Part shown: piece by piece, positions 30,588 through 42,330 of the stretch
Layout of the letters: each line of letters starts with the position of its first letter
Numbering within the stretch: position 1 is the first letter of the stretch
Assembly: GCA_023663905.1 (NCBI GenBank)
Contig: JAMPGO010000009.1
Span: 1-42,330 of the forward strand
Reading direction: 5' to 3'
DNA: 42,330 nt
Origin: Ruminococcus flavefaciens
Lineage (GTDB): Bacteria; Bacillota; Clostridia; Oscillospirales; Ruminococcaceae
Position numbers and translations under genes: made by a program
The notes under the pieces: generated by a model
Databases searched by the model: none
What the model saw: the letters and a program-made list of their open reading frames with translations, nothing else
Told to the model about the DNA's origin: nothing

Positions 30588-31805
30588 TCACACCAGTCTC
30601 ACGACTAACGTCGCACAAAAATATCTGTTACGAATCTCCGCATACACCTCGCCGCCCATAAGTGACATCAGCCGTTTGCAGATGAAAAGTCCCAGTCCGT
30701 TTCCCTGCACCTTATTGGAATTACTTCCACGATGAAAGCTCTCAAATATCTGCGGTAATTCCTTCGTTTCAAGTGTACAGCCGCTATTTGATACTGTAAT
30801 AAGTTCACATCCGTCCATTTTGTCAAAGCTGATTTCAATTCGTCTGCCGTCGCCGTATTTTATGGCATTCTCCACAAGATTTTGCAAGCATTCGGCGAGA
30901 CGGTCGGTATCGCAGGAAAGCAAGCAGTCGTTATATTTTTGTATGACAAATTCTGTTCCTGTCATAGCAAGCTGAGGTGCGTATCTTGCATCTATTCTTG
31001 CGATGATACTGCTGAGAAAAGCTTCTCTCAATGCGACCTCGAAGCTCATAAAATCCTCGCTCGCCGCCTTGGTTATCTCACTTACAAAGCTCTCTATCTC
31101 ATCCGCACGAACGTTTATGCTCTCGGCTGATTCACGGCGCTTATCTTCATCTTTGTATAAACCCTTGGCAAGCGCCTTTGCATTCAGTTTGATAGCAGAC
31201 AGAGGTGTTTTTATATCGTGAGACAGCGACAGAAGCAGTAGTTTTTTATCTCTCTGCATTGCAATTTCTTTTTTACGGCTTTCCTCAATGCTTTCCCGCA
31301 AAAGATTGATACCCCACGTAAATTTCCCAAAAAATCGGCTTTTTTCTTCGGGTATCGGAACAGCAAGATTCCCTTTTGCAAGCTCCTGCGGAACATCGTT
31401 CAGTCTGCCGAACGGAGCAATGATATGCCGCCATATATAATACAGCAATCCGAATATTAACATTAATACAATGCACAGCGTACAATTTATTGCCAAAACG
31501 CTATGCTGTCTGCCGTCAACGGAATATTCCACACGATAAGGTGTGCCGTTCACTTCGATTATAAGATAATGTTCATCAGAAATATAAAGTTCACCGTCAG
31601 CTTCTGTAAAAACTCCCATAAGACGAGGATATTTTTCAAGGTCATAATTGCCTGTTTTTTCAATTTCGTCCGCAAGCTGTTTGGCTTCAACACGGTAAAA
31701 TCCATCTGAACTGCGTTCCTGCCTGAAAAGATAAATATTCAAGGTTATCGTCAGCAGTACAAAAACAGAAATGACTGCAAAACAAAGTCTGTTGAATGCT
31801 TTCAT
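30588..31805 (-). CDS. Sensor histidine kinase of the ABC-transporter operon
   Basis: The 405-residue protein has a membrane helix near the N terminus (about 7-27), an extracytoplasmic loop of about 75 residues, a second helix at about 105-125 and a HAMP-like linker. The kinase core has the H box LSHDIKTPLSA (His about 196), N box LVENAIKYG and G boxes in GNGLGLFICKRL. It would phosphorylate the OmpR-type regulator encoded just upstream, whose stop overlaps this start as ATGA. The loop is larger than in BceS-type kinases, so it probably senses its signal itself rather than only through the transporter; that is inferred. Confidence 0.93.
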   Translation of the reverse strand: MKAFNRLCFAVISVFVLLTITLNIYLFRQERSSDGFYRVEAKQLADEIEKTGNYDLEKYPRLMGVFTEADGELYISDEHYLIIEVNGTPYRVEYSVDGRQHSVLAINCTLCIVLMLIFGLLYYIWRHIIAPFGRLNDVPQELAKGNLAVPIPEEKSRFFGKFTWGINLLRESIEESRKKEIAMQRDKKLLLLSLSHDIKTPLSAIKLNAKALAKGLYKDEDKRRESAESINVRADEIESFVSEITKAASEDFMSFEVALREAFLSSIIARIDARYAPQLAMTGTEFVIQKYNDCLLSCDTDRLAECLQNLVENAIKYGDGRRIEISFDKMDGCELITVSNSGCTLETKELPQIFESFHRGSNSNKVQGNGLGLFICKRLMSLMGGEVYAEIRNRYFCATLVVRLV

Positions 31806-32464
31806 ACGAATTTGTACCCCACACCCCAGACGGTCAGCAGACGTTTTGCATTCTTAGGGTCGTCTCCAAGTTTCGAGCGCAGACGGTTTATATGAACGTG
31901 GAGCGTTTGCAGTTCCGAATTGCTGTCGCTTCCCCATACCCTGCTGAACAGATATTCCTTATTCATAGCCTTGCCCTGATTTTCGATAAGCAGAGCCAGC
32001 AAATCAAATTCCTTTGCGGGCAACTCTGCGGACTTGCCGTCAATGATAGCTGTGCGATTGACGAGATTCAATGTCACACCGTTCGCCGACAATATATCCC
32101 TCTGATACCTCCGCTTGAAAATGCCTCTAATCTTTGCGAGCAGAATATCAATATCATAAGGCTTTTCTATATAGTCGTCCGCACCGATATCAAAACCGTT
32201 AAGCTTATCTTCCTTTTCGGTACGACAGCTTACTATCAATATGGGCGTATCGGTATTTTCTCTGAGCTTTGAGCATACCGCAAACCCGTTCACATCAGGA
32301 AGATTTATATCTAGCACCACAAGCTTAGCGCCGTATCTCTCAAACAGCTCGACCGCACGCTCTCCGCTGTCCACGATTGATACCGTATAGCCCTCCTCAC
32401 GCAGAAAATCTGTCAGCAGTTTTGCAAGCTCTTTGTCATCTTCCACTATCAGAATATCGGTCAT
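31802..32464 (-). CDS. OmpR-family response regulator
   Basis: The 220-residue protein has a receiver domain (acidic EDD at 8-10, phosphorylated Asp about 52 in LDINLPD, Lys in YIEKPYD) and a C-terminal winged helix ending LLTVWGVGYKFV, typical of the OmpR/PhoB family. AGGTGG lies before the ATG. It sits between the ABC genes and the kinase gene in one operon. The direct repeat at the permease promoter (35700-35717) has the 11-base period such regulators bind, so it probably controls its own operon. Confidence 0.95.
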   Translation of the reverse strand: MTDILIVEDDKELAKLLTDFLREEGYTVSIVDSGERAVELFERYGAKLVVLDINLPDVNGFAVCSKLRENTDTPILIVSCRTEKEDKLNGFDIGADDYIEKPYDIDILLAKIRGIFKRRYQRDILSANGVTLNLVNRTAIIDGKSAELPAKEFDLLALLIENQGKAMNKEYLFSRVWGSDSNSELQTLHVHINRLRSKLGDDPKNAKRLLTVWGVGYKFV

Positions 32465-32515
32465 ATTATCACCACCTACAAGTATTGTACCATATCAGCG
32501 GCGATATTGCAAGTA

Positions 32516-33286
32516 TCACCAGCCCTGCTCCATAAGCCAGTTATTCAGCCCTCTTTCACGGTCTCGAAGCTCCTTGTCGCCTCCGTCAAAATGCCCCATT
32601 TCCTTTTCACCAACTATTCTGCCGTCCACAATGTAAAGCACCCTACTGCACTTGGCGGCAACCTTCGGGTCGTGGGTAACGCACATAACTGTAGTTCCGT
32701 CACGGTTGAGCTTTAACAGCTCGTTCATCACCTCGTCCGAGCTTGCACGGTTGAGTGCGCCCGTAGGCTCGTCTGCAAATATCATCTTCGGCGAATTTAT
32801 CATACTACGGCAGATACAAGCCCTCTGTAGCTGTCCGCCCGATACCTCGTTGATGTCGTTTCCGCCCACTTCGTCAATACCCAGTCTGCACATTAGCGAC
32901 CTGCCACGCTCTTCGGTCTGTTTACGGCTTTCGGTATTCTTTTTCGATTTGACCGCAGGCAGAATAATATTGTCAAGCACCGAGAGATTTTTCATCATAT
33001 ACATCTGCTGAAAAATAAATCCCATTTCATCAAGGCGAAGTCTCGCAAGTTCCTTATCTCCAAGCTTTGCGGTTTCCTTGCCGTCAAATACGACCTCGCC
33101 CGCTGTCACTCTGTCCATTCCCGAAACACAGTAGAGCAGAGTGCTTTTACCCGAACCTGAAGGACCCATTATTGCCACGAACTCTCCTTCATTGATTGTC
33201 AGGTCGATATTTTTCAGCACATTGTTCTGATGTTTGTTTACGATATATGTCTTGCAAAGACCCTTTGTCTGTAAAACCGTTCCCAT
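32516..33286 (-). CDS. ABC transporter ATP-binding protein (MacB/BceA/LolD type)
   Basis: The 256-residue protein has Walker A GPSGSGKST at 41-49, the Q-loop in GFIFQQMY, the signature VSGGQLQRA and Walker B MIFADEP, followed by the H-loop in VTHDP. It powers the FtsX-type permease encoded just upstream. AGGAGG (33295-33300) overlaps the permease stop codon, a sign of tight coupling. Together with the two-component genes this is the usual arrangement of Firmicute systems that detoxify or respond to cell-envelope peptides; the substrate is not visible. Confidence 0.95.
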   Translation of the reverse strand: MGTVLQTKGLCKTYIVNKHQNNVLKNIDLTINEGEFVAIMGPSGSGKSTLLYCVSGMDRVTAGEVVFDGKETAKLGDKELARLRLDEMGFIFQQMYMMKNLSVLDNIILPAVKSKKNTESRKQTEERGRSLMCRLGIDEVGGNDINEVSGGQLQRACICRSMINSPKMIFADEPTGALNRASSDEVMNELLKLNRDGTTVMCVTHDPKVAAKCSRVLYIVDGRIVGEKEMGHFDGGDKELRDRERGLNNWLMEQGW

Positions 33287-33298
33287 TTTGTTTTCCTC

Positions 33299-35647
33299 CT
33301 ATTCTATGCTTGCCGTGTCGGACGCTTTTATCGTTCTTGTATAAAGAGCCGTCAGGAATGAGCCGATAATCGTTACCGTCAGAAGTATTGCAGGGCAGAC
33401 CGCAAATATCTCCACAGGGTCAATATCACACTTGATTCCTTCCACATCGCCTATCATCGAGCATATCCAATTCATCATAACATTACTTATCGGCATAAGC
33501 ACTGCAAGAGATATGATACAAGCCAGTACCGATACAATAACAAATCTCAGCGTATGCTGTGCAATGATACTGCCGTTCGGTATACCTACTGCTTTCATCA
33601 ATGCAATCTCGCTTTTTTCCTTTGAGATGAATGAACGCTCCAGAAGAACGACAATGAGCGCAGTCACGATAGCAGTCAGTATCATCATCATCTGTTTGAT
33701 AGTGTTCAGTGCGCCTGATATTCCTGTAAATGTGCTTATCATATCCGAAGTGTTATATACCTTGTCACTGTCGATAAGCTCTTTTATCTTCTCAACATTG
33801 CGGTCTATGGTTTCTTTGTCGGGATTGCCGTCAAAATGTATCTGCACACCCACCGTGCTGTCCGCCGGCAGCTCTCCGAGGTCAAAATCTTTGTAAAGAT
33901 ATGCCGACGAGGAATTAAATGAGGAAAATCTTCCCGTGATGATAAATTCATATTCCTTATCATCAATGACTGCCGTTATTCTGTCGCCTATCTGAGCGTC
34001 AAGGTCACGGAGTGCACTTAACGTTAAGGCGACCTCATCATTTTTTTGCGGAGCGATTCCTTCGTCAATACGAAGCGTATCGTCAGTATCGCCCTTAATG
34101 ACACCGAAAAGTATACTTGCTTTCTTATCTTTGTGTGCCGCTTCAGATTTTGCGGCTATTGTCATTGTACATTTACCCGACATACCATTTTCTTCAAGCA
34201 GTTTTTCCGTATCTGCAATGATATGCTTGTATGCACTCATATCTATCAGAACTTCGCCGATTGTATCGGCATCAAGAATATGCGCTTCACTTGTCGGCAC
34301 ATTGAACAGCCAAAGTATCTTCTCGCTTTTGAGAGTCAGTGCAAAGTTGGACATAAGTGCTGTCATAAGAATGCAAAGGGTAAATATAACAGTGATAATG
34401 CCAAACTGCTTCGGAGCGCTTAATATATCGTTAAGCGCCATAAATACGGTTGACGGCAGTTTTGAACGTCTGAGATGTATGACGCTTTTTTTGCGGAAAC
34501 GCTCTCCTGTCTGTCCGTTTCTTACTGCGTCTATCGGAGAGAGATTATTTACCCTGCGTGTACAGCCGTAGCAGAATATAAGAATGATAAGCACTACCGC
34601 CGTCGAACTGATAAATCCCATTAAACTGCCGTTTTCAATGCCCAGCACCATATTCTCCGATACGGTTTTCATCATCATATCTCCGAGCGGTATCGAGCCG
34701 AAGAATCCGATTACCGCACCGACGACTGAGATTGCAAGATACTTGACGATGTAAAGCGCACGTATACTGCCGTTGCCGATACCGACCGCCTTCATAATGC
34801 CTATCTCACGGAACTCCTCGCTTATGGTAAAACCGATTGCAAAACGAAGTACGACAAATGCTGTGAGCATTAATATAATGCTTATCGCCATCATTATATA
34901 TGCTGTCACTATATCATAAATATAAATGCTTTTCAGTTCATCTCTTGTACTGACGTCCACTCCTTCATAGCTTTTGGCAAACTCCTTGATACTGTCAACG
35001 TCTGAGGTGCTGATAAAAAGCTGAGTGTAACTCATAGTATGGCAGGCTTCGTCTTTGTCCAGATATTCATAGTCGGCGGAATCAATGATAAGCATAGGAT
35101 TTACAGAGCTTTGCGTGCTGAATACCGCATCCTTGAAACGTCCCATAAATTTAAGTGTGAGCTTGCTGTCGCCGATTTCCAGTTCGATTTCATCGCCTTT
35201 TTGGATATCCGTATTATGCAAAAAGGGCGATGTGGCATAAAAACAGCCCTTGTCCACGCTTTCTATGATATTGTTATCTTCATCGAAATAATTGATACCC
35301 ATTTCATCTTCGGAAATCAAAAATGCAGCATTGATGAAGTTGTCAAGTTTTTTACCGTTATGCTTGAAAAATTTCGAGCTGAATACAGTCAGCAAATGCT
35401 CGCTTTTCACCTCGTCCACAGACGGCAGAGAGATAATTTTTTCCTCAACATCGTTTTCTGTGGGCATTTGAACGACAGCGTTCGGTACGTCTGCTTCGTC
35501 AAAAAAATGCTCAATACCGCCGTTAACCGCAATGATATTATTAACGCTCGCCGTCGCAAACATCGCAGAAAGTATCACGAACAGTAGGAGAATGATGTTC
35601 ATAGTCTTTTTGCGTTGCAGGTCTTTTTTCAGTATCCTCCGGAACAT
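33299..35647 (-). CDS. FtsX-type ABC permease with two FtsX domains
   Basis: The 782-residue protein starts with one helix (about 17-36), has an extracytoplasmic domain of roughly 200 residues, then an FtsX domain of three helices (near 250-370). A second half repeats the plan: a helix near 410, an extracytoplasmic domain and three helices up to the C terminus. The motif GIMKAVGIGNGSIRALYIVK in the first half recurs as ALMKAVGIPNGSIIAQHTLR in the second, showing internal duplication. Such mechanotransmission-type permeases do not transport across the membrane in the usual sense. It is the first gene of a four-gene operon with ATPase, regulator and kinase. Confidence 0.93.
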   Translation of the reverse strand: MFRRILKKDLQRKKTMNIILLLFVILSAMFATASVNNIIAVNGGIEHFFDEADVPNAVVQMPTENDVEEKIISLPSVDEVKSEHLLTVFSSKFFKHNGKKLDNFINAAFLISEDEMGINYFDEDNNIIESVDKGCFYATSPFLHNTDIQKGDEIELEIGDSKLTLKFMGRFKDAVFSTQSSVNPMLIIDSADYEYLDKDEACHTMSYTQLFISTSDVDSIKEFAKSYEGVDVSTRDELKSIYIYDIVTAYIMMAISIILMLTAFVVLRFAIGFTISEEFREIGIMKAVGIGNGSIRALYIVKYLAISVVGAVIGFFGSIPLGDMMMKTVSENMVLGIENGSLMGFISSTAVVLIILIFCYGCTRRVNNLSPIDAVRNGQTGERFRKKSVIHLRRSKLPSTVFMALNDILSAPKQFGIITVIFTLCILMTALMSNFALTLKSEKILWLFNVPTSEAHILDADTIGEVLIDMSAYKHIIADTEKLLEENGMSGKCTMTIAAKSEAAHKDKKASILFGVIKGDTDDTLRIDEGIAPQKNDEVALTLSALRDLDAQIGDRITAVIDDKEYEFIITGRFSSFNSSSAYLYKDFDLGELPADSTVGVQIHFDGNPDKETIDRNVEKIKELIDSDKVYNTSDMISTFTGISGALNTIKQMMMILTAIVTALIVVLLERSFISKEKSEIALMKAVGIPNGSIIAQHTLRFVIVSVLACIISLAVLMPISNVMMNWICSMIGDVEGIKCDIDPVEIFAVCPAILLTVTIIGSFLTALYTRTIKASDTASIE

Positions 35648-35684: not shown

Positions 35685-35717
35685 ATTATAGCATATCAAT
35701 TCTTAACAAGTCTTTAA
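35685..35717 (-). promoter_or_regulatory. Promoter with direct-repeat operator for the ABC/two-component operon
   Basis: On the minus strand TATAAT (35685-35690) has a TGC extension, and the -35 position reads only AGACTT. Overlapping and abutting it are TTAAAGA (35711-35717) and TTAAGAA (35700-35706), starting exactly 11 bases apart. OmpR-family regulators bind such tandem half-sites on one face of the helix, so autoregulation by the operon's regulator is likely. Confidence 0.6.
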
Positions 35718-35929
35718 CTTTTGGAAAAAACACAAAAATAAAGAGCGGAGCATTTAAACTCCGCCCTTATTGCTGAAAAGTCAGGCATTATATTTGACCT
35801 GCGTTTTCTGATACTCATAACAAGGCTGATTATCGAGCATACATAAGTCACAATCGGGCTGATAAACGAGAACACAAGTCCTACAATCATAAGCACAAGC
35901 GACGGCACGTGAATTTTCTTTTTTTCCAT
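35714..35929 (-). CDS. Small membrane protein next to the CPBP protease
   Basis: AAAGAGGT upstream supports the ATG, and the gap to the protease gene is 20 bases, so the two are cotranscribed. The 71-residue product is basic at the N terminus (MEKKKIHVPS) and has one long or two short hydrophobic segments at about 9-39, followed by RKRRS. Beyond about residue 50 the frame runs through a terminator hairpin (35741-35766), so the last 20 residues may not be original; a frameshift near the end is possible. Small basic membrane proteins beside CPBP proteases can be immunity or accessory factors of peptide systems; this is inference only. Confidence 0.6.
   Translation of the reverse strand: MEKKKIHVPSLVLMIVGLVFSFISPIVTYVCSIISLVMSIRKRRSNIMPDFSAIRAEFKCSALYFCVFSKS
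35739..35766 (-). terminator. Terminator inside the end of the small membrane ORF
   Basis: On the minus strand GGGCGGAG and GCTCCGCTC form a hairpin (core GCGGAG 35745-35750 with CTCCGC 35759-35764, loop of 8) followed by a T-rich stretch. It would end the protease/small-protein transcript just before the ABC operon promoter. Confidence 0.7.
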
Positions 35930-35949: not shown

Positions 35950-36942
35950 TTATATTGCATTTATTACTGTCAGGGCAATAAATATCAATGTTGTGATTAG
36001 CGTAACAGGCGAAGTAAAATAACTCACTGCCGTCCTGATTCCCGAAACTTCCGTATCGTTTTTTTTAAGTTTAAAGCTGTCTCTTCGATTTATTATTTCA
36101 AGTATAAAAAATACAAGTCCCGTAATCATTATGGCGATTGTCAGAAATCCCATTAATACAGTTACAATTATCGGTGCAAGATTACTCATTATATATTCGC
36201 TGTCCTCAGCTAAAATTTTTCCTGTATCAATATCCCCGACAAACAGCGACGATACCGCTCCGACAGTATTCAGGCAGAAATGAAGTAATATTGACGGAAT
36301 AATTGATTTTGTTTTGACGATGAGAAATCCTGCGCATACGCCAAGCGTCGCCGTATACAAAGTCTGTTCGTAGTTACAGTGCCAGAGTCCGAACATAATT
36401 CCCATAATAATAATCATTGTCCACGAACCGTACTTCACGCTATTTCTCAAAAGCGTACCTCTGAACAGAATTTCTTCAAAAAACGGTGCAAGGAACATCA
36501 TTGCAACTATATTTGTGATTCTTGACAGAGCGTTGTCGTCCGCTGACATATCAATCGTGTGAAGTTCGATTCCAGTTGCGTATTGCAGAATATTGAAAAA
36601 TATGTTTGATATGTAGCCTGCTGTGTACACGAGAAACAGTGAAATAAATATCCACCTGAACACCCATTTTGCAGGCATTTCAGATTTGCGGAAACACGGT
36701 TTCAGTTTCGGAATCTTATTTGATTTTCCGAAAATCAACAATAATATCGGTATGTCGATAATATACTGAAACAAAAATATAAGCAGACTTTGCAGATATT
36801 CGTAGTTTGCGGATTCACTGCTTACAAACAGTTCTGTAATCGGTTCTGAAAAAGCCGTGAATATTAATATCAGTACCGTCCATAAAAGCAGTATGCCCGA
36901 ATTAACGTTTGAAGCCTTACGCAGATTTTTTGTTGCATTCAT
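35950..36942 (-). CDS. CPBP-family intramembrane metalloprotease
   Basis: The 330-residue protein has about eight hydrophobic segments and the three CPBP motifs: FFEEILFRG (EExxxR, Glu about 156-157), FGLWHCNYEQ and LLHFCLNT. The family includes CAAX-type prenyl proteases of eukaryotes and, in bacteria, Abi proteins often found next to bacteriocin genes, where they give immunity or process peptides. The promoter has a good extended -10 but no -35, and two LytTR-type boxes just upstream. Activation by the neighbouring AgrA-like regulator is therefore likely. It is cotranscribed with a small membrane protein gene. Confidence 0.92.
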   Translation of the reverse strand: MNATKNLRKASNVNSGILLLWTVLILIFTAFSEPITELFVSSESANYEYLQSLLIFLFQYIIDIPILLLIFGKSNKIPKLKPCFRKSEMPAKWVFRWIFISLFLVYTAGYISNIFFNILQYATGIELHTIDMSADDNALSRITNIVAMMFLAPFFEEILFRGTLLRNSVKYGSWTMIIIMGIMFGLWHCNYEQTLYTATLGVCAGFLIVKTKSIIPSILLHFCLNTVGAVSSLFVGDIDTGKILAEDSEYIMSNLAPIIVTVLMGFLTIAIMITGLVFFILEIINRRDSFKLKKNDTEVSGIRTAVSYFTSPVTLITTLIFIALTVINAI

Positions 36943-36986
36943 TTACATTTCCCCTTAAATTAATTTTTATCTTTCTGACATAATCA

Positions 36987-36995
36987 ATTATAGCA
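36987..36995 (-). promoter_or_regulatory. Activator-dependent promoter of the CPBP gene
   Basis: On the minus strand TATAAT (36987-36992) with a TGC extension. The -35 position (37010-37015) reads CCGCAA, far from consensus, as expected for a promoter that needs an activator. Confidence 0.7.
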
Positions 36996-37024
36996 CAATT
37001 CCTGAATTTTTGCGGATATTGTTC

Positions 37025-37054
37025 TGAACGGTCATTTTTTGTCCCCAAACGGTA
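37025..37054 (-). promoter_or_regulatory. Pair of LytTR-type binding boxes
   Basis: On the minus strand TACCGTTTG (37046-37054) and GACCGTTCA (37025-37033) share ACCGTT and start 21 bases apart, leaving a 12-base gap. This is the geometry of boxes bound by AgrA, ComE and PlnC-type LytTR regulators. The nearer box ends 32 bases before the -10 of the CPBP gene. A LytTR regulator gene lies 1.4 kb away. Confidence 0.72.
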
Positions 37055-37065
37055 CAGACTGATAT

Positions 37066-37106
37066 AAAAAATGCCATTGTCCTGTAATTTTACAAAACAA
37101 TGGCAT
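37066..37106 (-). terminator. Terminator of the Agr-like two-component operon
   Basis: ATGCCATTGT (37071-37080) and ACAATGGCAT (37097-37106) form a perfect 10-bp stem with a smaller inner stem (TGTAA with TTACA). On the minus strand it is followed by a run of six T. Confidence 0.9.
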
Positions 37107-37112
37107 ATATAA

Positions 37113-38423
37113 TTATTCGCTCACAAACGGCAGGACTACTGTTGCTTCAAATCGGGATTCTTTTCTTTCAGCCACAAAACTTCCGCCGTATTTTTCGGCA
37201 ATCAGATTAACGTTGCTCAACCCGTAACCGTGCATAATTTTATCAGGCTTGTCGCTTGCAAAATTTTTGAATCCGATGTTTCCGACAGTCGAATTTAAAA
37301 TATTAACAACAAGCGCAGTATCGTTCGTAAAAATATTTACGTTGATAAATCTGTCGTCTATGTTGCTTATTTTTACACAGGCTTCAATCGCATTGTCAAG
37401 CAGATTTCCCAGCACTACACTCAAATCATAACGCTCTGTATTGATTTGATTCTTGTCGATTTTTATGTCAGTCCTGAATTTTATATTTTTTACCTCCGCA
37501 GTATTATAAGCGTTGCTGACAAGAGCATCTATTACAAGTAAGCCTGTATTAATCCGCTTGTAAGAAGCGCTGAGATTATTAACAGCCTTGTCGATATAGC
37601 CTACCGCTTCATTATAATCTTCCTGAATAACGCATTCCCTGAGATAGACAAGATGTTTGTTGGTATCGTGCAGAATACCGCTTATACTCTTGAACGACAT
37701 AGAAGTCTGCTCGTATTTTTTCTCCTGAAACATAAACTGACTTTCCATTATAGCTTGTTTCTGCCTGATTTCATTAGCCTGTATTATATTATTCAGAAGA
37801 TAGTATACAATAAAATTGATTATCAGTATGCCGAGTATCGCCGTATTGGTCGGGAATCCAGCATTTACGGCATTGTCCTTTGATTCGACAGTAACGGCGA
37901 TTATTATGAATATACTGATAAGCGGTACGATAATCATACACAGATAGTCCTTGAAATCCGCCTTGACGGAATTTCTTTTCAGAATCAGCAATACTATCAG
38001 AACCATTATAAATTTTATGAGTTTTGACAGCATTACCGCATAAATGTACATATCATTTTCGGGTGTTTGAATATCATAAAATGACTTTACCCCTGTTATT
38101 ATGCTGTTTGCGGCAACTTCCGAAATCATTGAAAAAACAATAAACGATATACTTGCGAACAGTCTGGCAATCAGTTTTGTTTCATATAAAACAGTAAACA
38201 AAAAGACTTCAATAAGCGATATTAATATATTGCCAAGCCACGTAAAATCGGGAATCCTTGCAAACCAGAATAACGTGCTTATGCCGATATAAGTCAGATA
38301 ATATATCGGCTTTACCGCCCAGTGTTTTCTTATTCTGAAAATAATTTCACAATATATCATTGTAATAATCATCTCAAATACGGAAGCTGCTATGATAAAA
38401 ATCAACTGCATTGCCTCGCTCAT
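37113..38423 (-). CDS. AgrC-like GHKL sensor histidine kinase
   Basis: The 436-residue protein has about six hydrophobic segments in the first 215 residues, then a coiled dimerisation region with GILHDTNKHLVYL (His about 252) and a GHKL ATPase domain with LGNLLDNAIEAC and HGYGLSNVNLIAEKYGG. This is the plan of AgrC/ComD-type peptide-pheromone receptors. The start overlaps the stop of the regulator gene as TAATG. No agrB or obvious pheromone gene lies in the window, so the signal may be made elsewhere or be a peptide handled by the adjacent CPBP protease. Confidence 0.92.
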   Translation of the reverse strand: MSEAMQLIFIIAASVFEMIITMIYCEIIFRIRKHWAVKPIYYLTYIGISTLFWFARIPDFTWLGNILISLIEVFLFTVLYETKLIARLFASISFIVFSMISEVAANSIITGVKSFYDIQTPENDMYIYAVMLSKLIKFIMVLIVLLILKRNSVKADFKDYLCMIIVPLISIFIIIAVTVESKDNAVNAGFPTNTAILGILIINFIVYYLLNNIIQANEIRQKQAIMESQFMFQEKKYEQTSMSFKSISGILHDTNKHLVYLRECVIQEDYNEAVGYIDKAVNNLSASYKRINTGLLVIDALVSNAYNTAEVKNIKFRTDIKIDKNQINTERYDLSVVLGNLLDNAIEACVKISNIDDRFINVNIFTNDTALVVNILNSTVGNIGFKNFASDKPDKIMHGYGLSNVNLIAEKYGGSFVAERKESRFEATVVLPFVSE

Positions 38424-39169
38424 TATTTCTTATACCTCACAACCATATATTTTGAAAAAGCTTCTTTGATTTCAGACAGCTTTCTTCTGCTCGCTTCTAC
38501 TGTTTTACCGTTTGTGAGTTCAACCATATTTGAATTGAATTTCCTGATATATTTCATATTGACAAGTACAGACCTGTGTACGCTTATAAAGTACTGTTCT
38601 CTTAATTCCGATTCCATTTCCGCAATTTTCCCCTTGATTTTAAATTCCCCGTTTATTGTGGTTACAAGCAGATTTGATTTTGTGGTAAGACTTTTTACGG
38701 TTTCAAAGCATATAATATCTTCCAGATGAAGCACGATTTCGCCCTGTTTCAGACTTATTACAGTGATATTTGTTTGCAGTTCCGTAAGATAGTTTACAAG
38801 TCTTTTCATCTTATCTTCAAACAGTTCATAGGTCAGCGGTTTTGTAAGGTACTGGTATGCCTGCACGTCAAAACTGTCCTGCATATATTCGGGATAACTT
38901 GTGATAAATACTATAAGCACGTTTCGGTCGGGAATCCGACGTATTTTTTCAGCTAACTTTATACCGCTTATTACAGGCATTTCCACGTCTAAAAATACTG
39001 CGTCGTATCTGAATGGTTTGCTTTTATACTCATCAAGTAGCTTGTTTCCGTCCGAATATTTATCGATATTAAACTCTATTCCGCTCCGAACGGAAAATTT
39101 AAGAATATAGTCCTCAATTTTTTTGATTTCCGATATTTCATCGTCGCATACTGCAATATTCAAAAGCAT
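38423..39169 (-). CDS. AgrA-like LytTR response regulator
   Basis: GGGGAG (39178-39183) supports the ATG. The 248-residue protein has a receiver domain (acidic CDDE at 8-11, phosphorylated Asp about 61 in FLDVEMP, Lys in YLTKPL) and a LytTR DNA-binding domain at about 140-245 with YFISVHRSVLVNMKYI, GKTVEASRRKLSEIKEAF. It is translationally coupled to the GHKL kinase gene. The paired ACCGTT boxes before the CPBP protease gene are probable targets; its own promoter shows no such boxes. Confidence 0.94.
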   Translation of the reverse strand: MLLNIAVCDDEISEIKKIEDYILKFSVRSGIEFNIDKYSDGNKLLDEYKSKPFRYDAVFLDVEMPVISGIKLAEKIRRIPDRNVLIVFITSYPEYMQDSFDVQAYQYLTKPLTYELFEDKMKRLVNYLTELQTNITVISLKQGEIVLHLEDIICFETVKSLTTKSNLLVTTINGEFKIKGKIAEMESELREQYFISVHRSVLVNMKYIRKFNSNMVELTNGKTVEASRRKLSEIKEAFSKYMVVRYKK

Positions 39170-39201: not shown

Positions 39202-39230
39202 ATTATAACACATCTTAACATAATTTTCAA
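39202..39230 (-). promoter_or_regulatory. Promoter of the Agr-like operon
   Basis: On the minus strand TTGAAA (39225-39230), 17 bases, then TATAAT (39202-39207) with a TGT extension. Confidence 0.82.
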
Positions 39231-39328
39231 TATGATAATTCGCCTTTCGGGGATATATAAGAACCATTCGAGGTGCAGGGCGAAAATGGACGGGATTTTG
39301 AAAACGGCATAAAGTTACGAAAAAAGAC

Positions 39329-40965: not shown

Positions 40966-41013
40966 AAAAATAACGGCAGATTTTCGTCTGCCGTTACAAT
41001 TTCCAGTGAATAT
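40965..41013. terminator. Recombinase 3' end and terminator (second repeat copy)
   Basis: The stem AACGGCAGA/TCTGCCGTT (40972-40980 with 40986-40994) lies between convergent genes and is preceded on the + strand by a run of A, which gives a T tract on the minus strand. It ends the recombinase transcript and may also end the ankyrin gene's. The whole segment is repeated at 40193-40242. Confidence 0.85.
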
Positions 41014-42330
41014 GAATCGTACGTCCGCCGTTTTCCTGCACCTCGCCGACTTCGATAAAGTCAATAAATTCCTCAACAATACTGCGGTCAAGGACGGTGA
41101 AATGCGTGTATTTCTCTATGACAGCACGCTGATTTTCGGCATTTTCCCGACGTGTACGGCACTCGTCAATATGCTTTTCGATTTCGGCAAGTCGCTGACT
41201 TATTTCCTGCTCCTCGACGGACAGACTTTCACGGAATGCCCTGTAATCCGCTTCCGAAATAATGCCGTCGAGCCTGTCCTTGTACATCATTGTAAGGCGG
41301 TTTCTGGCGGTCTGCAACTGCGCTTCAAGACTGTTCCGCTGACGTTCCAGAGCCTGTAACTGCTCCTGCTGTATGTCGGTAATTGCAATTTCGTCCGTCT
41401 GACAGTAACGCTCGATAATGGTATTCAGCTCGTCAAGAATTTTCTGCTCTAGCACTTTACCGCTGAGCGTTTTGGTGTTGGGGCAGTTCATTGCCCCGAT
41501 TTTATACGTGGCACACTGCATACCGTAATATTGGATAGTCTTAGCCTTGTTATAGTAAACGTTCCGCTTCATCGGGCGACCGCAGACCGCACACTTCACA
41601 TTACCCGACAAAGCGGAAACTTCATTTGTCACACGGCTTGAACGTATACGGCTGTTTAAGCGTTCCTGCGTGCGTTCCCACGTTTCACGGTCAATAATTG
41701 GCTCGTGCGTGTTCGGAATGCGCACCCATTCGCTTTTGCTGACTTTTTTACGCTTCTTGTTTTTGTAGCTGACGTGGTGGGATTTCCCTTGCACAAGCGT
41801 ACCCGTGTACATTTCATTCCTGAGTATCGCCGCAATTGTTGACTGCGTCCACAAACCTTTCGTGTTGCTGCTGTTGGCGTTGCAGTTGACATAATTTGAA
41901 CCCGACTGCTTCTTGTAAGCGGAAGGGCTGAGGATTCCTCTGCCGTTCAGCTCCTGTGAAATTTTTCGGTAGCCGTTGCCCTGCACGAACATATCAAAAA
42001 TCAGCCTCACGTTATCAGCCGTGTTTCTGTCAACAATCAGCCTGTGCTTATCTTCGGGGTCGATAAGATAGCCGTAAGGTGCGAACGAGCCTATAAACTG
42101 CCCCTGCTCACGCTTGAACGTGAGCGTACGTCTTATTTTACTGGAAATATCTTTCACATACATCTCGTTGTACGCACTCGTAAAAAGCCGCATAGTTCCG
42201 TACATTTCGCTGTCCGAGTCCGCATTATCCGCAACCCCGATAAAACGGATTCCCCATTCCAGAAATTTATCATTTATGTACTGCTCGATGACAATAATAT
42301 CCCTCGAAAATCTCGACTGGTCTTTGCACA
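40994..42330 (-). CDS. Large serine recombinase, N terminus outside window
   Basis: The frame is open through the end of the window, beyond the first Met in view at 42205. The visible 445 residues begin in the resolvase catalytic domain (KDQSRFSRDIIVIEQYINDK, then GVADNADSDSEMYGTM and KDISSKIRRTL). The Recombinase domain follows (FAPYGYLIDPED, ADNVRLIFDMFVQGNGYRKI, ILRNEMYTGTL), then a zinc ribbon (CAVCGRPM ... MQCATYKIGAMNCPN) and a long coiled coil (about 290-390) before the end IHIHWKL. The catalytic serine lies outside the window. Large serine recombinases integrate and excise phages and transposable elements at att sites, so this marks a mobile element reaching past the right edge. A diverged copy of its 3' end occurs at 40193-40242. 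Confidence 0.93.
   Translation of the reverse strand, partial: CKDQSRFSRDIIVIEQYINDKFLEWGIRFIGVADNADSDSEMYGTMRLFTSAYNEMYVKDISSKIRRTLTFKREQGQFIGSFAPYGYLIDPEDKHRLIVDRNTADNVRLIFDMFVQGNGYRKISQELNGRGILSPSAYKKQSGSNYVNCNANSSNTKGLWTQSTIAAILRNEMYTGTLVQGKSHHVSYKNKKRKKVSKSEWVRIPNTHEPIIDRETWERTQERLNSRIRSSRVTNEVSALSGNVKCAVCGRPMKRNVYYNKAKTIQYYGMQCATYKIGAMNCPNTKTLSGKVLEQKILDELNTIIERYCQTDEIAITDIQQEQLQALERQRNSLEAQLQTARNRLTMMYKDRLDGIISEADYRAFRESLSVEEQEISQRLAEIEKHIDECRTRRENAENQRAVIEKYTHFTVLDRSIVEEFIDFIEVGEVQENGGRTIHIHWKL

Follow-up and report, generated by a model that had tools for sequence, protein, structure and literature searches.

A candidate sensor-only Agr derivative beside an intramembrane protease gene in Ruminococcus flavefaciens

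What does an Agr-like two-component pair sense, and what does it control, when no signal gene is visible beside it? The question was raised by a locus in a stretch of 42,330 nucleotides (the window) from Ruminococcus flavefaciens (assembly GCA_023663905.1, contig JAMPGO010000009.1), in which genes for a LytTR response regulator (RR) and an AgrC-like sensor kinase (HK) are followed by predicted LytTR boxes, a gene for a CPBP intramembrane protease and a gene for a small membrane protein. The initial annotation had proposed either a peptide-sensing system whose response is the protease itself or an immunity system listening to a neighbour's peptide. Comparison with other genomes lent support to the second proposal: at the position of the window's CPBP gene the closest relatives have agrB, agrD and double-glycine (GG) peptides, and the small protein has some homologues that are linked to CPBPs and bacteriocin-like clusters. 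The first proposal, a response to the cell's own peptide, was weakened because agrBD was missing. On balance, the locus appears to be a sensor-only (solo) Agr derivative wired to an immunity-like pair of CPBP and small protein and eavesdropping on a neighbour. A fuller version is put forward more tentatively: a constrained, signal-less AgrC/AgrA-type pair, with a single known promoter leading to the immunity pair, would let the cell arm itself on sensing the autoinducer of a bacteriocin-making neighbour. The main features, in transcription order on the minus strand from RR through HK and CPBP to the small protein, are listed below.

38423..39169, minus strand: LytTR response regulator (AgrA-like, RR), 248 aa; PF04397 63 bits, PF00072 52 bits
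37113..38423, minus strand: AgrC-like sensor kinase (HK), 436 aa, with a GHKL ATPase domain; PF14501 79.7 bits
37071..37106, minus strand: hairpin and T-run after HK; z -7.4 against shuffles
36947..37054, minus strand: segment homologous to the agrD promoter of the related locus L095; 73% over 109 alignment columns
37025..37054, minus strand: predicted LytTR operator, TACCGTTTG at 37054-37046 and GACCGTTCA at 37033-37025, starts 21 bases apart
36987..36995, minus strand: extended -10 TGCTATAAT with no -35; sigma-70 scan and conserved position
35950..36942, minus strand: CPBP (Rce1-like) intramembrane protease, 330 aa; PF02517 70.9 bits (cut-off 22.4)
35714..35929, minus strand: small membrane protein, 71 aa; alignment, hydropathy and family search

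Relatives of the pair and the missing agrB

Profile matches bore out the initial descriptions of RR, HK and CPBP, and the coordinates given at first were exact. As in Agr systems, the LytTR regulator adjoined a GHKL kinase whose N-terminal sensor comprises several helices (PF04397, PF00072 and PF14501 were all over their cut-offs), and six hydrophobic segments were found in HK by a simple hydropathy scan. The kinase was not an AgrC equivalog, because it scored 24.4 bits with the NCBIfam staphylococcal AgrC model, whose cut-off is 500. A search with RR through the contigs of 84,980 species genomes gave 14 loci (L095-L108). RR orthologues in ten of them (L095-L104) were 86-46% identical to that of the window; L107 held a 56-residue RR fragment, also present in genome G064, and L108 was not an orthologue (33% over 69 residues). 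In six of the 14 loci (L095, L096, L097, L100, L102, and L103), RR and HK were followed by agrB and agrD, which bears out the Agr kinship proposed for the pair. In L104 only a fragment of agrB was present; in L105 and L106, which are more distant, agrB lay 5' of RR; and agrB was not found in L098, L099, L101, L107, and L108. The HK of the window was 80% identical to that of L095 and 68% to that of L096. The AgrB of L095 scored 120.5 bits against a Pfam cut-off of 23, and the AgrD proteins of L095 and L097 scored 29.9 and 35.1 bits against the TIGR04223 cut-off of 19. By analogy with the AgrD of S. aureus, we take the autoinducer core to be TCFFIC in L095 and L096 and FCSFFF in L097.

GG peptides and a C39 exporter were also found in L095, L096, and L102. 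Further downstream in L095 and L096 were several small GG-carrying proteins beginning like MENVMKNGFAELS, an intramembrane protease (CPBP in L095 and M50 in L096), and a C39-type exporter that the locus end truncates after its N-terminal part. Judged by its genes, the L095/L096 cluster looks like an autoinducer-controlled double-glycine bacteriocin cluster. A protein of 156-157 aa was encoded at L095:11008-11481, L096:11010-11483, and L098:3371-3841; it came after agrD in L095 and L096, where the L095 copy was weakly DUF5085-like, below the cut-off, and lay within a LytTR cluster in L098. L101 had full-length RR and HK (L101:443-2472), with no agrB in the next 1.5 kb and no box pair after HK, and probably represents an independent loss.

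The absence of agrB and of a precursor, already remarked from the open reading frames, held up at the locus: three AgrB queries found no match in the window at E 0.05. The alignments indicated where agrB had been. Across the RR and HK genes, as far as the stop codon of HK, the DNA of the window aligned with that of L095 (78% over 2165 columns). The match resumed for 109 columns (73%, blastn E 1e-10) over the agrD promoter with its boxes and stopped a few bases short of the start codon of CPBP. The stretch missing between the two matches was agrB. The second match to L096 also fell on the agrD promoter (39 columns, E 0.001), and the hairpin after the window's HK was matched by a hairpin just 5' of agrB in both L095 and L096. 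Since agrB is absent, a leader-like hairpin remains and the agrD promoter stands before CPBP, the locus reads RR, HK, lost agrB, agrD promoter, CPBP, small protein. Since 18 regions with a CPBP homologue lacked a box pair (see below), the boxes are not ancestral to the CPBP gene; this gene has instead been placed under the putative operator of the regulator. A chimeric assembly keeps some residual probability, but the junctions fall at gene boundaries.

The strongest competing explanation, which we regard as unlikely but not negligible, is that of a decaying remnant, in which RR-HK and its promoter are on their way out after the loss of agrBD, CPBP is expressed weakly or constitutively, and nothing is sensed. 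Such decay is suggested by the 13 orthologous loci, among which L098, L099, and L101 have no agrB, L104 has an agrB fragment and L107 an RR fragment, and by the truncated small protein and a degenerate second operator 5' of RR in the window itself. However, both RR and HK are full length, and a branch test of the window and L095, with L096 as the third sequence and the 180 codons that differ in all three left unclassed, gave nonsynonymous to synonymous changes of 22/85 on the window branch (RR 6/33, HK 16/52) and 14/57 on the L095 branch (Fisher p 1.0). RR-HK of the window was thus as constrained as in the lineage that kept agrBD. The boxes, their spacing, the -10, and the CPBP motifs are also intact, and the new gene sits exactly under the promoter. 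Within HK residues 1-205, the window and L095 were 75% identical, and L095 and L096, whose AgrD cores are identical, were 64% identical. Because the former value exceeds that between two kinases with the same core, the HK of the window probably recognises the same class of peptide as those of L095 and L096.

The LytTR boxes and the regulator family

Two predicted 9-bp LytTR sites with a 12-bp spacer lay 5' of the CPBP promoter, as in Agr, and the TATAAT of TGCTATAAT started 32 bases past box 2. The geometry reported at first (21-base period, 32-base gap, extended -10 without a -35) was reproduced exactly on rereading. No promoter with a -35 was found at the CPBP extended -10 in the sigma-70 scan of the window, which fits a promoter needing an activator. 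The pattern ACCRTT-N15-ACCRTT occurred once in the window; in 100 shuffles the average was 0.02, and one copy was reached in 2 of them. The genome assembly is 82% complete, and all genome-wide absences reported here carry that scope. The search for further pairs that the initial annotation had called for found four copies in the whole genome, against one for a reversed-pattern control; by eye, only the window copy had an extended -10 at the right distance. The other three pairs were accordingly rejected as regulon members and taken as chance.

The boxes were recognised as LytTR type because their 21-base spacing and the position of the -10 recurred in loci of the regulator's family. In the window and L095-L104, 21 ACCRTT pairs were found at a start-to-start distance of exactly 21, against five at all other distances from 6 to 50, so the conservation expected of the boxes was seen at the regulator loci. 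TG-N-TA stood at the position of TGCTATAAT in 13 of the 16 forward pairs, window included (by eye), and the repeat in the window and its relatives was mostly TACCRTTCA. The remaining five of the 21 pairs lay 5' of RR and faced away from it, and none of them had TG-N-TA. Their distance to RR was 60-63 bases in L097, L098, L099, and L101 and 162 in L100. These pairs (L097:172, L098:2309, L099:246, L100:894, and L101:383, all on the minus strand) had no -10 on their own side and perhaps serve RR autoregulation. The predicted boxes belong to the family of RR, so that the conserved unit is regulator plus putative operator. The expectation that the boxes are kept 5' of CPBP orthologues failed, as none of 18 regions with a CPBP homologue had a box pair. 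The gene order RR-HK-CPBP was likewise kept in none of the 14 related loci.

Two further elements lie 5' of RR in the window.

39202..39230, minus strand: RR-HK operon promoter, ordinary sigma-70-like, TTGAAA-17-TATAAT with TG; scan, 11/12 matches
39242..39271, plus strand: second operator relic, GCCTTTCGG and ACCATTCGA, 21 apart and pointing away from RR; read from the sequence

The second operator was an imperfect copy of the pair found 5' of RR in relatives. The promoter stretch was also alignable with L034 (G064), where a stretch of about 200 bases covering the promoter and the start of the RR gene (L034:10098-10325) was 80% identical to the window. This stretch is a relic of the same module in another species, with integrase-like and excisionase-like genes about 1 kb away. 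An order-level HK search at E 1e-35 found 2 of 394 genomes, namely the window's own and a fragment in G488. An RR relative was encoded in none of 50 pattern-matching stretches of viral contigs, and matches in plasmids were confined to the C-terminal portion of HK and, among the best 20 of 22, did not exceed 32% identity.

The protease and the small membrane protein

The protease contained the motifs of the CPBP family, EEILFR at 156, FGLWH at 184, and HFCLN at 221, the last being the third histidine motif. The first two correspond to EExxxR and FxxxH as given in passages of a published account (PMC9298176). Most of the CPBP matches at E 0.001, which were present in 106 of 110 genus genomes, were remote. 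With a threshold of E 1e-50, homologues with 33-50% identity were found in 17 of the 109 other genus genomes. Neither a box pair (spacings 20-22 scanned) nor an RR or HK match occurred in the 18 CPBP-homologue regions fetched; for L118 and L121 these regions reached only 33 and 21 bases 5' of the gene. The idea that CPBP genes in general carry such boxes was rejected on this ground.

The 71-residue membrane protein of the initial annotation proved to be a membrane protein but not a full-length one: it was a 3'-truncated member of a two-helix family of about 90 residues, with the first helix kept and the second absent. The end of the frame ran into a terminator, and its start is uncertain, because family similarity extends a few codons 5' of the ATG. 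A role as signal precursor was rejected for the small protein, because its family consists of membrane proteins that have no double-glycine leader. A profile search found this family in 60 of 396 genomes of the taxonomic family, the window's included, and the neighbourhoods of 30 matches were examined, 29 besides that of the window. One of the 29 held a natural fusion of CPBP with a small-protein tail (395 aa; L169/L198, L198:6806-7993), and in another (L170/L199) the small protein was accompanied by a CPBP, a double-glycine peptide, and what remains of the 157-aa and C39 genes. The small protein lay 3' of a box pair with TGTTACAAT in L165/L202 and about 450 bases 3' of a box pair without TG in L166/L196. 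The other 25 had no fusion, box pair or bacteriocin-like cluster within at most 1.5 kb. Outside this set, the small protein of L098 stood in the LytTR cluster, flanked by the 156-aa protein and a GG peptide, and that of L127, one of the 18 CPBP regions, stood directly 5' of CPBP. Given the fusion, the adjacency, and the common clusters, CPBP and the small protein are probably functionally linked. The link of the small protein to bacteriocin-like clusters is recurrent though not general.

The protease could also act on signalling, by trimming a peptide like MroQ or SilX or by binding the kinase like Abx1 or SpdC, with feedback on HK. In favour of this explanation, the CPBP gene adjoins the HK gene in the window; MroQ is described as a CPBP that trims AgrD in S. 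aureus (in part of PMC10482373), and passages of PMC9298176 assign SilX a probable part in maturing a signal peptide and describe other CPBPs as kinase-binding. However, an AgrD substrate was not found at the locus, a match to the window's CPBP at E 1e-3 was absent from all 14 RR loci, and RR or HK matches were absent from the 18 CPBP regions, which makes a signalling role improbable here.

The terminator at the end of the small-protein frame is the remaining element of the unit.

35741..35768, minus strand: terminator overlapping the end of the 71-aa frame; terminator/hairpin scan

A weak promoter-like site was found at 35978-35949, just 5' of the 71-aa frame, in a scan that gave 19 sites in total against 14.9 in shuffles. 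Directly downstream, window positions 30588-35647 (minus strand) encode an FtsX-type permease, an ABC ATPase, an OmpR-type regulator, and a VanS-like kinase, which may form another antimicrobial-peptide response unit. A serine-recombinase-like gene at 40994-42205 (minus strand), close to the contig end, is a possible marker of a mobile-element border.

Weighing the eavesdropping reading against known systems

If the eavesdropping reading is right, the locus would derive from an Agr-type system that adjoins a double-glycine bacteriocin-like cluster in its closest relatives. HK would bind the cyclic autoinducer of a neighbour that keeps agrBD (predicted core TCFFIC in L095 and L096), phosphorylated RR would bind the two boxes and activate the extended -10, and CPBP, perhaps together with the truncated small protein, would shield the membrane from the bacteriocin-like peptides produced by the neighbour under control of that signal. 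Several points weigh against this reading. The 71-aa protein may no longer function, since its second membrane helix is lost. Decay is frequent among the related loci (L098, L099, L101, L104, and L107), so the window could be caught at a recent step of decay, and the constraint test is blind to a very recent loss of agrBD and left 180 codons out. With 18% of the genome missing, agrBD or an exporter may be encoded there. Only 2 of 29 loci with small-protein homologues had a box pair nearby, and none of the 18 regions with CPBP homologues did. The CPBP of another bacteriocin locus, SilX, conferred no immunity and seems to act in signal maturation, according to passages of PMC9298176.

The signal genes were sought elsewhere in the genome. 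One AgrB over the family cut-off was found, on contig C11, where a second agr-like system (L114; C11:463971-466822 of genome G000) comprised an RR, an HK, the AgrB, and a short AgrD-like frame. The best match to an L095-type AgrD in the genome had E 0.028 and an internal stop, in a search that a very different AgrD would escape, and the agrD97 match in the window (E 0.001) lay inside the FtsX gene. No PF03412 match to a C39 peptidase was found in the genome; one was present in 8 of 14 control genomes. Neither a GG peptide nor the 157-aa protein was found in the window at E 0.05, and no genome-wide search for GG peptides was made. Complete quorum sensing in trans, with agrBD in the missing 18% of the genome or with the C11 system and its AgrB as partner, is quite improbable, because the C11 components are distant (RR 28% and HK 26% identical, AgrB 23-32% identical to the relatives', AgrD-like frame 25% identical to the AgrD of L096, E 0.004), agrBD adjoins HK in the closest relatives, and the window has the look of a local loss with relics.

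The locus shares with the staphylococcal Agr system (AgrBDCA, P2) a LytTR regulator and a GHKL kinase with six hydrophobic segments, and the AgrB and AgrD of its relatives pass curated cut-offs; the agr P2 promoter has two 9-bp sites 12 bp apart, as described in part of PMC10482373. It differs in that agrB and agrD are missing, the gene order is RR-HK, and the target is the CPBP gene instead of agrBDCA and RNAIII. The PlnC/D promoters of Lactobacillus plantarum have 9-bp repeats with a 12-bp spacer of crucial length 5' of bacteriocin-regulon promoters (passages of PMC2714321). The window has the same two repeats and spacer, but the plantaricin repeat is TACGTTAAT with a -35, whereas mostly TACCRTTCA and an extended -10 without a -35 are found here. 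The plantaricin signal is a linear peptide. In the peptide-controlled pneumococcal blp locus, CAAX proteases and short membrane proteins (PncP, BlpY, BlpZ, and others) are considered immunity genes, and the relation between the two is called unclear (passages of PMC4860687). The window differs from blp in its Agr-type sensor, in having one such promoter in the genome, and in that no bacteriocin or C39 exporter was found. Eavesdropping in blp was reportedly the subject of Miller et al. 2018 (cited in PMC9638458). The case for eavesdropping on peptide signals comes mostly from the blp loci of streptococci.

No combination of a signal-less Agr pair with a CPBP gene at the former agrD promoter came up in searches of the open-licence literature. 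Cyclic-lactone autoinducers and class II clusters are tallied in a survey of rumen isolates (PMC13289728), whose relevant passages mention no sensor-only loci. The novelty is the combination, each part being of a known kind. LuxR solos such as SdiA, which are Gram-negative acyl-homoserine-lactone receptors, are receptor-regulators without a signal synthase that detect foreign signals. They resemble the locus in the receptor kept without its synthase; the locus differs in being built on a two-component Agr pair next to its one target promoter.

The fusion ties a small two-helix family of about 90 aa, for which there is no Pfam model, to CPBPs as a Rosetta-stone link, and is a lead on how CAAX proteases and short membrane immunity genes work jointly. 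If the eavesdropping reading is true, the locus would be a Gram-positive counterpart of the LuxR solos, with immunity instead of attack as its output. It would be an example of Agr-type eavesdropping readable from DNA, in which relatives with the ancestral signal genes name the likely ligand, and a directly testable case of one synthetic cyclic peptide, one promoter, and one protease.

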